Virus record (IMG/VR): IMGVR_UViG_3300025138_000126
Location: 1 to 36,933 of that record
Source of the DNA: a virus
DNA: 36,933 nucleotides
Reading direction: 5' to 3' (one strand)
The notes beneath the pieces are model-generated. The model had not been told where the DNA came from. It did not search any database and saw only the letters and a program-made list of their open reading frames with translations. Shown here piece by piece: positions 31,211 to 33,757 of this stretch; the stretch's first letter is position 1; every line of letters starts with the position of its first letter. The position numbers and the translations under genes are program-made.

Positions 31211-31834
31211 TTATCTATAATATTTAGTTACTCCATTTTTATTTTTAACAATATAAAACCCACGTAGATTTAAACTATTAATATCGTTTGTTATATGTAA
31301 CACATTACCATAAATATCGTGTATATAATGCGTTAAATTGCGTGTATATTCGCTTACATTTACTAAGCCATAGCAATTATCGAATACAGGGTTAAATGCA
31401 ATATAATTATTACTACCATTTAAATCTAAATTAATACTATTATTAGGACCTACAGCACTAACAGTAACTATACAGTTTTCTTGATAATAATCAAAAGCAG
31501 AATTAAAACAATTGAAGGGATCATTCCAATTTCCAAAATAATAAGTAATAGTATCATTTAAACCTAAAGCTGGATAGAAAAAAGTAAAAGCTGATGATGG
31601 AATTAGACAACTATACCCATCAAAACTAAATCCTAGTTGCATAACATATAGAGAATCCTCAGAGGGTACCCAGAAAGGAGTACTTGAATTACTACAGTTA
31701 TTATCATTTAAAGTTAAAGTAATAGTTTCTTCATCCCAATTAATATCTAGAAGTTCTAGATCACACGTTGAAACTTGAGATAATAATGATGAAGACCAAA
31801 CAAAAAACGCCCAAAAGAAAAAGAGATTTTTCAT
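31211..31834 (-). CDS. Secreted protein with signal peptide and T9SS-type C-terminal sorting domain
   Basis: This is a 207-residue protein when started at MKNLFFFWAFF (31834). The longer frame from 31921 would begin inside the tRNA-like gene and bury the signal peptide, so the internal ATG is chosen. Residues 1-20 form a signal peptide with a probable cut before Q in SLLSQVSTC. The middle is a beta-rich domain with Cys residues and Asn/Ser-rich loops. The last 45 residues (VSEYTRNLTHYIHDIYGNVL, then SLNLRGFYIVKNKNGVTKYY) have the strand pattern and the G-(F/I/V)-Y-I/F-V-K ... K end of type A sorting domains used by the Bacteroidota type IX secretion system. The protein would reach the host surface or medium. 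Function unknown; surface alteration or exclusion of other phages is inference. Confidence 0.72.
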   Translation of the reverse strand: MKNLFFFWAFFVWSSSLLSQVSTCDLELLDINWDEETITLTLNDNNCSNSSTPFWVPSEDSLYVMQLGFSFDGYSCLIPSSAFTFFYPALGLNDTITYYFGNWNDPFNCFNSAFDYYQENCIVTVSAVGPNNSINLDLNGSNNYIAFNPVFDNCYGLVNVSEYTRNLTHYIHDIYGNVLHITNDINSLNLRGFYIVKNKNGVTKYYR

Positions 31835-31894
31835 TGAAATATGTATTAAGTAAATTATAGGAATTGGTAACTTTTTACCATTAATACATATAGG

Positions 31895-31971
31895 TAGGCA
31901 AGGAGAGACTTGAACTCTCATGTAACCAATTACTCTTTCTACAAGGTATAAGCTTGAGGAGATACATGCCT
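31895..31971 (-). tRNA. Aberrant tRNA-like gene, no canonical D-arm
   Basis: It lies 3 bases after the encoded CCA of tRNA-Arg. The coding strand has acceptor AGGCATG paired with CTTGCCT (one T:T mismatch), discriminator A followed by CCT, and a perfect T-arm (GAGAG, loop TTCAAGT, CTCTC). Before the T-arm is a GTAA-TTGG-TTAC hairpin that looks like a class II variable arm. The 5' half contains no GG-bearing D-loop. Two anticodon readings are possible: loop TTGTAGA (GTA, Tyr, agreeing with a class II arm but with a poorly paired stem) or loop CTTATAC in a CAAG/CTTG stem (TAT, Ile). It may be a decayed tRNA or an unusual functional one. Confidence 0.45.
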
Positions 31972-31974
31972 ATA

Positions 31975-32051
31975 TGGTGAACCCGGTAGGATTTGAACCT
32001 ACGACCGATACCTTAGAAGGGTATTGCTCTATCCAGCTGAGCTACGAGTCC
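31975..32051 (-). tRNA. tRNA-Arg (TCT), CCA encoded
   Basis: A complete cloverleaf is visible on the minus strand. The acceptor is GGACTCG/CGGGTTC with two wobble pairs, the D-arm is GCTC-AGCTGGATA-GAGC, the anticodon arm is ATACC-CTTCTAA-GGTAT (anticodon TCT), and the T-arm is GTAGG-TTCAAAT-CCTAC. Discriminator A and CCA are encoded. It reads AGA/AGG, arginine codons common in AT-rich phage genes. Confidence 0.95.
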
Positions 32052-32082: not shown

Positions 32083-32171
32083 TGGTACCGCTGGGCGGAC
32101 TCGAACCGCCACGAGCCGTTCGGCTCAACAGATTTTAAGTCTGTCGTGTCTACCAATTCCACCACAGCGGC
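32083..32171 (-). tRNA. tRNA-Leu (TAA), CCA encoded
   Basis: A complete class II cloverleaf is visible on the minus strand. The acceptor is GCCGCTG/CAGCGGT, the D-arm contains AATTGGTAGA, and the anticodon arm is ACAGA-CTTAAAA-TCTGT (anticodon TAA). The long variable arm is GAGCC-GAAC-GGCTC, the T-arm is GGCGG-TTCGAGT-CCGCC, and the end is discriminator A with encoded CCA. It reads UUA/UUG, by far the most used leucine codons here. It follows the 62-residue gene by 7 bases and is probably co-transcribed with it. Confidence 0.96.
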
Positions 32172-33115: not shown

Positions 33116-33757
33116 CTATAAAATAATAATTTTTATTTGATCTTCTATTAATTCACTTTCTCCCATATCTGTATTAAATGTAGTTTCTATAAAAATATTA
33201 ATTGTATCCCCTACCATTTCATCATCTAAAAATATATTTTGAGTAGGTTGATAAGTATATTTTGAGTAAGTTCCTAATAAAGTATGAGCAGCAGGATGAT
33301 CTACATCAAAATATCTAGGGATTTGATAACCAACAATATTTAAAGGAGGATATAATGAAATCATATCATTTAAAGTAATAATCATATTTCCTACTGCTAT
33401 AGGATCATTTAATGAATTACTATTAAACCAACCTAAATAAGAATACATAGGGGTTTGAAAAGTTAAACTATCTAATACAACCCAATAATCAGAGTCAAAC
33501 TTTGCTTCAATTAAAGGAACGCCATTTAAAACATAATCATCATTTAGTGGGGTAAGATAACCGGATATTTGAAAGTAATTTAACTCATCCCACTCTACTT
33601 CATAATATCCGTCTACATTAGGAGAAATTAAATTATTTTTATATATAACTCCATAAGAAGTTTCACAATCTCCATTACAAGGAGTTTGAACAATAGCTTC
33701 TTTAGTACATGAAGAAAAAGCTAAAAGAATTGATAGGGCAAATATTGTATTTTTCAT
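33116..33757 (-). CDS. Phage-encoded lipoprotein
   Basis: This is a 213-residue protein when started at 33757 (MKNTIFALSILLAFSSCTKE). The longer frame from 33799 is rejected because it would displace the signal peptide, and because the shared A-rich start (AAATAAAGGTTATG) lies at 33757. The signal peptide ends in a lipobox F-S-S-C with a charged residue soon after, the style of Bacteroidota outer-membrane lipoproteins. The mature part is beta-rich (YYEVEWDELNYFQISGYLTP), with two Cys in TPCNGDCET that may form a disulphide. It is expected in the host envelope. Superinfection exclusion is a common role for phage lipoproteins, but is only an inference here. Confidence 0.72.
   Translation of the reverse strand: MKNTIFALSILLAFSSCTKEAIVQTPCNGDCETSYGVIYKNNLISPNVDGYYEVEWDELNYFQISGYLTPLNDDYVLNGVPLIEAKFDSDYWVVLDSLTFQTPMYSYLGWFNSNSLNDPIAVGNMIITLNDMISLYPPLNIVGYQIPRYFDVDHPAAHTLLGTYSKYTYQPTQNIFLDDEMVGDTINIFIETTFNTDMGESELIEDQIKIIIL

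Follow-up and report, generated by a model that had tools for sequence, protein, structure and literature searches.

Can a phage of Bacteroidota use the type IX secretion system (T9SS) of its host to deliver a protein of its own? This question is raised by a small gene in IMG/VR record IMGVR_UViG_3300025138_000126, a 36.9-kb viral fragment that was analysed over its whole length of 36,933 nucleotides (the window). The gene encodes a protein of 207 amino acids, reading MKNLFFFWAFFVWSSSLLSQVSTCDLEL...DINSLNLRGFYIVKNKNGVTKYYR at its N- and C-terminal ends, and this product (hereafter the cargo) had been taken in a first-pass annotation for a likely T9SS cargo. Type IX secretion is a main surface route in these bacteria, and superinfection exclusion in their phages is poorly understood. 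Our results support that annotation, in that the tail of the protein, not its body, matches host sorting domains. We consider it probable that the cargo is exported in two steps, through Sec and then through T9SS, to the surface or the medium of an infected Flavobacteriales-type cell. The gene and its parts are the following:

31211..31834, minus strand: coding sequence of the phage T9SS-like cargo, 207 amino acids plus stop, with the start set by homologues
31778..31834, minus strand: putative signal peptide, residues 1-19 (MKNLFFFWAFFVWSSSLLS), with a predicted cut before Gln20, based on a hydrophobic core and the conserved Gln20
31406..31777, minus strand: body, residues 20-143, beta-rich, based on alignment, Cys positions and low-confidence predicted strands
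31214..31405, minus strand: C-terminal T9SS sorting-domain-like region, residues 144-207, based on profile searches and hhalign
31307..31309, minus strand: Gly176, invariant, aligning with the glycine of motif L-beta3-beta4 in solved sorting domains
31223..31225, minus strand: Lys204, invariant, aligning with the conserved last-strand lysine (motif C-t.)

Profiles were run in six frames over 396 Flavobacteriales genomes. The full-length profile gave three matches at an expectation value (E) of 0.01 or less, and the two best, aligned at positions 144-207, are a textbook type A sorting domain ending '...IYPNPTADELNVTPLTKANKYVIYNSNGNVIKKGKIRKNINVSQLPTGLYIIKFSDGSSHKFIKK' and a type B domain. With the tail-only profile, 27 of the 30 best matches were C-terminal sorting domains of proteins; a T9SS hidden Markov model (HMM) made from 66 host domains picked out 25, and the other two were identified by inspection. 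By comparison, six examined host genomes hold 46-78 TIGR04183 matches each, an estimated few per cent of their genes. The reversed profile, used as a control, reached a best E of only 8.4e-4 versus 2.4e-6, and half of its top matches (15/30) cross stop codons. The window tail searched as a single sequence also found sorting domains (16 of the 30 best matches); 11 of these, assigned to type B by inspection, belong largely to a small number of recurring protein families and are therefore not independent. Moreover, the window tail scored 7.7 bits, while its shuffles averaged 0.8 (standard deviation 1.5) and none of 199 scored as high. In profile-profile comparison by hhalign, the phage tail matched the 66 host sorting domains with a probability of 74% (score 26.9, P 2.9e-5); the reversed control scored 8.7, and 59 column shuffles reached at most 14.3. 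Judged by such comparisons, the tail has detectable homology to host sorting domains and the body has none.

The likeness extends to single positions. Like TIGR04183 (Por_Secre_tail) domains, the cargo tail is C-terminal and has an NP motif, a YD-x-x-G turn, a G-x-Y strand and a final K strand, but the distance from the turn glycine to G-x-Y is about 16 residues, compared with about 20-23 in typical host domains. Gly176 and Lys204 are unchanged across alignments A2, A4 and A6 of the phage family, and in solved sorting domains the beta3-beta4 loop glycine and the region of the conserved last-strand lysine matter for secretion (PMC11285876). The C-terminal strand pattern and the flavobacterial-style signal peptide were both found as first described. 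A different origin of this pattern would be convergence, in which body and tail form one beta-rich domain, the tail being no more than its final strands, and the protein has a virion or other extracytoplasmic role. It might be suggested by the FNP motif and Cys154, which open the tail and are conserved along with the body, and by a low-confidence structure model that cannot separate body from tail. We hold this to be very improbable, since the hhalign probability of a match to sorting domains is 0.4% for the body as opposed to 74% for the tail, the great majority of the matches are C-terminal sorting domains, the reversed control was negative, and conservation falls sharply near residue 156.

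About a dozen distinct homologues of the cargo were found in viral metagenome contigs, with 50-81% identity over the whole protein or 66% over a retained half. Among 50,697 annotated phage records there was no relative (best E 0.3), and therefore phages of hosts outside Bacteroidota are not known to carry one. The first homologue group (L001-L008, L017, L020) is syntenic with the window, while the second (L013-L016, L018) lies in other gene contexts; the tested second-group contigs are phages with ribonucleotide reductase, DNA polymerase, DnaB helicase, thymidylate synthase or glycosyltransferase genes. The window body is 69-71% identical to the second group but 59% to syntenic L017, in which most genes neighbouring the cargo are 66-87% identical to those of the window, and this closer relation to the second group points to transfer of the cargo between phages. 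In addition, the tRNA-adjacent slot lacks the cargo gene in several close relatives (L335, L337, L338), so the gene is accessory. An origin of the body from a host chromosome was considered and dropped, as the genome-contig scan gave no relative and the 396 Flavobacteriales genomes no credible body match.

Comparison of the window with the second group divides the protein into modules, with identities of 11-21% in the signal peptide, 69-71% over residues 20-155 and 24-30% in the tail (24-34% when the tails of the two groups are compared); other first-group members share up to 75% identity with the second group over residues 20-155. The signal peptide, judged heuristically, has a Lys and a hydrophobic core with a best 10-residue Kyte-Doolittle mean of 2.2. 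Despite its low identity, Gln is present at position 20 in all 12 full-length homologues, and the Q-rule of Bacteroidota predicts Gln20 as the mature N-terminal residue (PMC5837995). Six Cys are conserved (24, 47, 76, 109, 121, 154), with Cys154 at the body-tail junction. The body matched no enzyme family, and its invariant residues form no obvious catalytic motif in the alignment. Curated HMM scans (NCBIfam, Pfam, PHROGs) of the cargo, the tail and the relatives gave no match, nor did sequence searches of solved structures, and the whole-protein structure model was weak (pLDDT, the predicted local distance difference test score, 47) and too poor for a structure search. A CARDB fold (PF07705), proposed by eye for the body, was rejected, with no profile match and an hhalign probability of 0.1% (score 8.6, while shuffles reach 18.1). 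As far as sequence can tell, the cargo is a conserved putative effector body with exchangeable address labels, namely signal peptide and tail.

Several observations weigh against export by T9SS. The first-pass annotation had proposed sorting-domain HMMs as a check, and neither TIGR04183 (cut-off 23 bits) nor any Pfam sorting-domain model matches the cargo or its relatives; TIGR04183 has no match anywhere in the window. Since the curated models miss its tail, the cargo is not a formal TIGR04183 member. The canonical YPNP motif is absent from the tail, which has FNP instead, and the signal peptide call is heuristic only. A model of residues 141-207 (pLDDT 60) is most confident in the last four strands (about 70-80), which stand in the expected order, and a structure search with this C-terminal model found RgpB, NucA, mirolase, RemZ, RemA, PorZ and HBP35 at Z scores of 2.2-3.3; unrelated folds score just as well as these seven T9SS sorting-domain entries, both models (pLDDT 47 and 60) are weak, and nothing in the search reached significance (lowest Foldseek E 1.1; highest Z 3.6, for a cellulase). 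The host is inferred rather than observed, and for two window genes, including a baseplate gene, Microcystis phage Mel-JY01 is about as close as the Flavobacterium phage discussed below. Finally, in one related clade (L006-L008, L019; e.g., L006:4387-4803) a deletion has removed the start codon and the front half of the gene while keeping the tail in frame, so the gene is dispensable.

Some of these points would suit an exported periplasmic protein, acting for instance in lysis or in blocking incoming DNA, whose tail, once a sorting domain, has degenerated or become vestigial and no longer serves type IX secretion: the tail lies under every curated threshold and evolves faster than the body, and one clade carries the truncated gene. 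Such a protein seems unlikely to us, because the ratio of nonsynonymous to synonymous substitution rates (dN/dS) indicates purifying selection on the tail (0.19-0.50) as well as on the body (0.06-0.31), the motif Gly and Lys are invariant though the tails of the two groups differ so widely, and a sorting-domain-like tail is kept in both groups despite its largely changed sequence. The first-pass annotation had named, as evidence against itself, a miss of every sorting-domain HMM together with C-terminal strands belonging to a larger domain, or else close homologues in phages of non-Bacteroidota hosts. The miss was found; the tail, however, behaves as a separate, faster-evolving module matching host sorting domains, and no such homologues are known.

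A host-type short tail, 'DxLGRE...YIYDDGTVEKK', is common in marine Flavobacteriales and resembles the second-group tails (10.4-13.5 bits); as a likeness of the window tail it was rejected, at only 1.1 bits. As a separate observation, C-termini of the 'FYIYDDGTVEKK' type are encoded in seven viral contigs, L141-L147 (e.g., L143:5853-8447, L147:8718-10922), and the full-length proteins seen are long (about 730-870 amino acids) and have a signal peptide. The short tail of these contigs is also found at the ends of proteins in at least 120 genome stretches, almost exclusively from Flavobacteriales; the three samples tested score under the TIGR04183 cut-off, and this tail may represent a T9SS class for which no model exists.

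The host of the window phage is likely a Flavobacteriales-type bacterium, and for several window genes the nearest annotated phage is Flavobacterium phage immuto (31-44%). Second-group contig L018 encodes a second secreted protein (L018:12938-13672, 245 amino acids), 2.4 kb downstream of its cargo homologue, which carries a full TIGR04183 domain at 41.3 bits, above the cut-off. By its predicted domains, this product is an unambiguous phage T9SS cargo, and a T9SS-positive host is therefore well supported for the L018 phage; one is likely for the window phage too.

In the proposed two-step export, the cargo would be translocated by Sec, and signal peptidase I would cut after Ser19, leaving Gln20 as the mature N-terminus. 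The body would then fold in the periplasm, probably with three disulfides given the six conserved Cys, and the last 64 residues, whose homology to type A sorting domains is divergent but detectable, would be recognised by the host type IX translocon, which would take the cargo through the outer membrane and deliver it to the cell surface or into the medium. The body would be the working part, common to unrelated phages, while the two address labels diverge or are swapped. Sorting domains from different species can be mutually incompatible (PMC11285876), so the change of labels plausibly suits the translocon of each host.

What the cargo does once outside is a more tentative matter. Our best guess, held with rather low confidence, is that it binds or covers a structure on the infected-cell surface and thereby hinders adsorption by competing phages or by the phage's own progeny; surface masking or superinfection exclusion is favoured because the cargo is small, apparently non-enzymatic and accessory. 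The first-pass annotation had suggested, as possible uses, the blocking of rival phages or a change of the glycan coat. T9SS sorting domains can lead to either release or attachment, so the cargo might also take the same route but be released, acting on extracellular polymers or neighbouring cells. Enzymes, namely an endoglucanase and a GH39 protein, do occur among the known phage T9SS cargoes (PMC7468147); on the other hand, the body is short, matches no enzyme family and shows no obvious catalytic motif among its invariant residues, and we think release somewhat doubtful. Returning to surface masking, it is conceivable, at a similarly tentative level, that flavophages share a dedicated, non-enzymatic surface effector whose body moves between unrelated phages while its labels are replaced to fit each host's export machinery, for example, for superinfection exclusion. 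If true, this would be a modular phage use of type IX secretion to remodel the infected-cell surface. The cargo, conserved in its body and variable in its labels, is a small candidate for a surface coat made by a phage, and one open to experiment.

The first-pass annotation held that phage use of T9SS would be uncommon, but it is not unprecedented. Previous work on Cryophage (Bellas et al. 2020, PMC7468147) reported phage-encoded T9SS cargo, namely an endoglucanase, a GH39 protein and a PA14 protein. Both cases involve phage proteins with a type A (here type-A-like) sorting domain, in variable gene slots of a Bacteroidota phage (here a probable one), and superinfection exclusion was already proposed there. 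However, the Cryophage cargoes have recognised sorting domains, whereas the window cargo is small, lacks a known fold, has a divergent tail and is common to unrelated phages with changed address labels. In phages of P. gingivalis (PMC10367356), the predicted signal peptides of proteins without an assigned function likewise expose an N-terminal Gln, as the Q-rule demands, which was taken as use of host export, but type IX secretion or sorting domains are nowhere mentioned in that paper. Contigs of crAss-like phages (PMC6949934) also encode sorting-domain proteins of Bacteroidota phages, but in gut phages and in a BACON-repeat context near head genes, while no known domain was found in the cargo body. 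Searches of open-licence papers showed no small cross-phage cargo whose labels change while its body stays conserved. Phage T9SS cargo is thus already known, and what appears new is the small, divergent-tailed, cross-phage and label-swapped kind. Because curated sorting-domain models miss some of them, the number of phage T9SS cargoes in viral databases is probably underestimated.

The location of the gene was also examined:

31975-32051 and 32083-32171, minus strand: tRNA-Arg(TCT) and tRNA-Leu(TAA), respectively, phage tRNAs next to the cargo gene, marking the accessory slot

The cargo gene lies directly downstream of tRNA-Leu and tRNA-Arg on the same strand, and the tRNA pair recurs in contigs L017, L019 and L020. 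Phage genes follow the cargo gene, with baseplate wedge genes further along the window. The gene had also been placed in a one-strand array with tRNAs and promoters; the tRNAs are indeed just upstream on that strand, but the promoters found no confirmation, as the Bacteroidota-type motif TTTG-N16-22-TANNTTTG had 0 matches where 3.1 were expected, and hence no excess. The gene itself is confirmed by the open reading frame at 31834..31211 on the minus strand (207 amino acids), by its homologues and by purifying selection. The program-made open reading frame is longer, up to 31921 (236 amino acids); the start was set at 31834 because the extra codons overlap what looks like a tRNA and because this Met is shared by homologues whose upstream DNA is unrelated. 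The tRNA-like sequence (window 31893-31975, minus strand) has matching acceptor ends and a T-arm and is conserved in L008 with a paired change; it has no ARAGORN or Rfam call, and its fold energy is ordinary.

As well, the window carries a neighbouring gene for a probable lipoprotein (33116-33757, minus strand; MKNTIFALSILLAFSSC|TKEA...), to which 26 loci in viral contigs are related (41-78%); among annotated phages, only Flavobacterium phage immuto has a relative. Joint loss of this lipoprotein and the cargo was considered and dropped, as lipoprotein genes are common without the cargo. Moreover, the stretch beside the tRNAs may be variable or repetitive, since contigs L002-L005 and L013 end there, within about 215 bases on the upstream side of the cargo gene.
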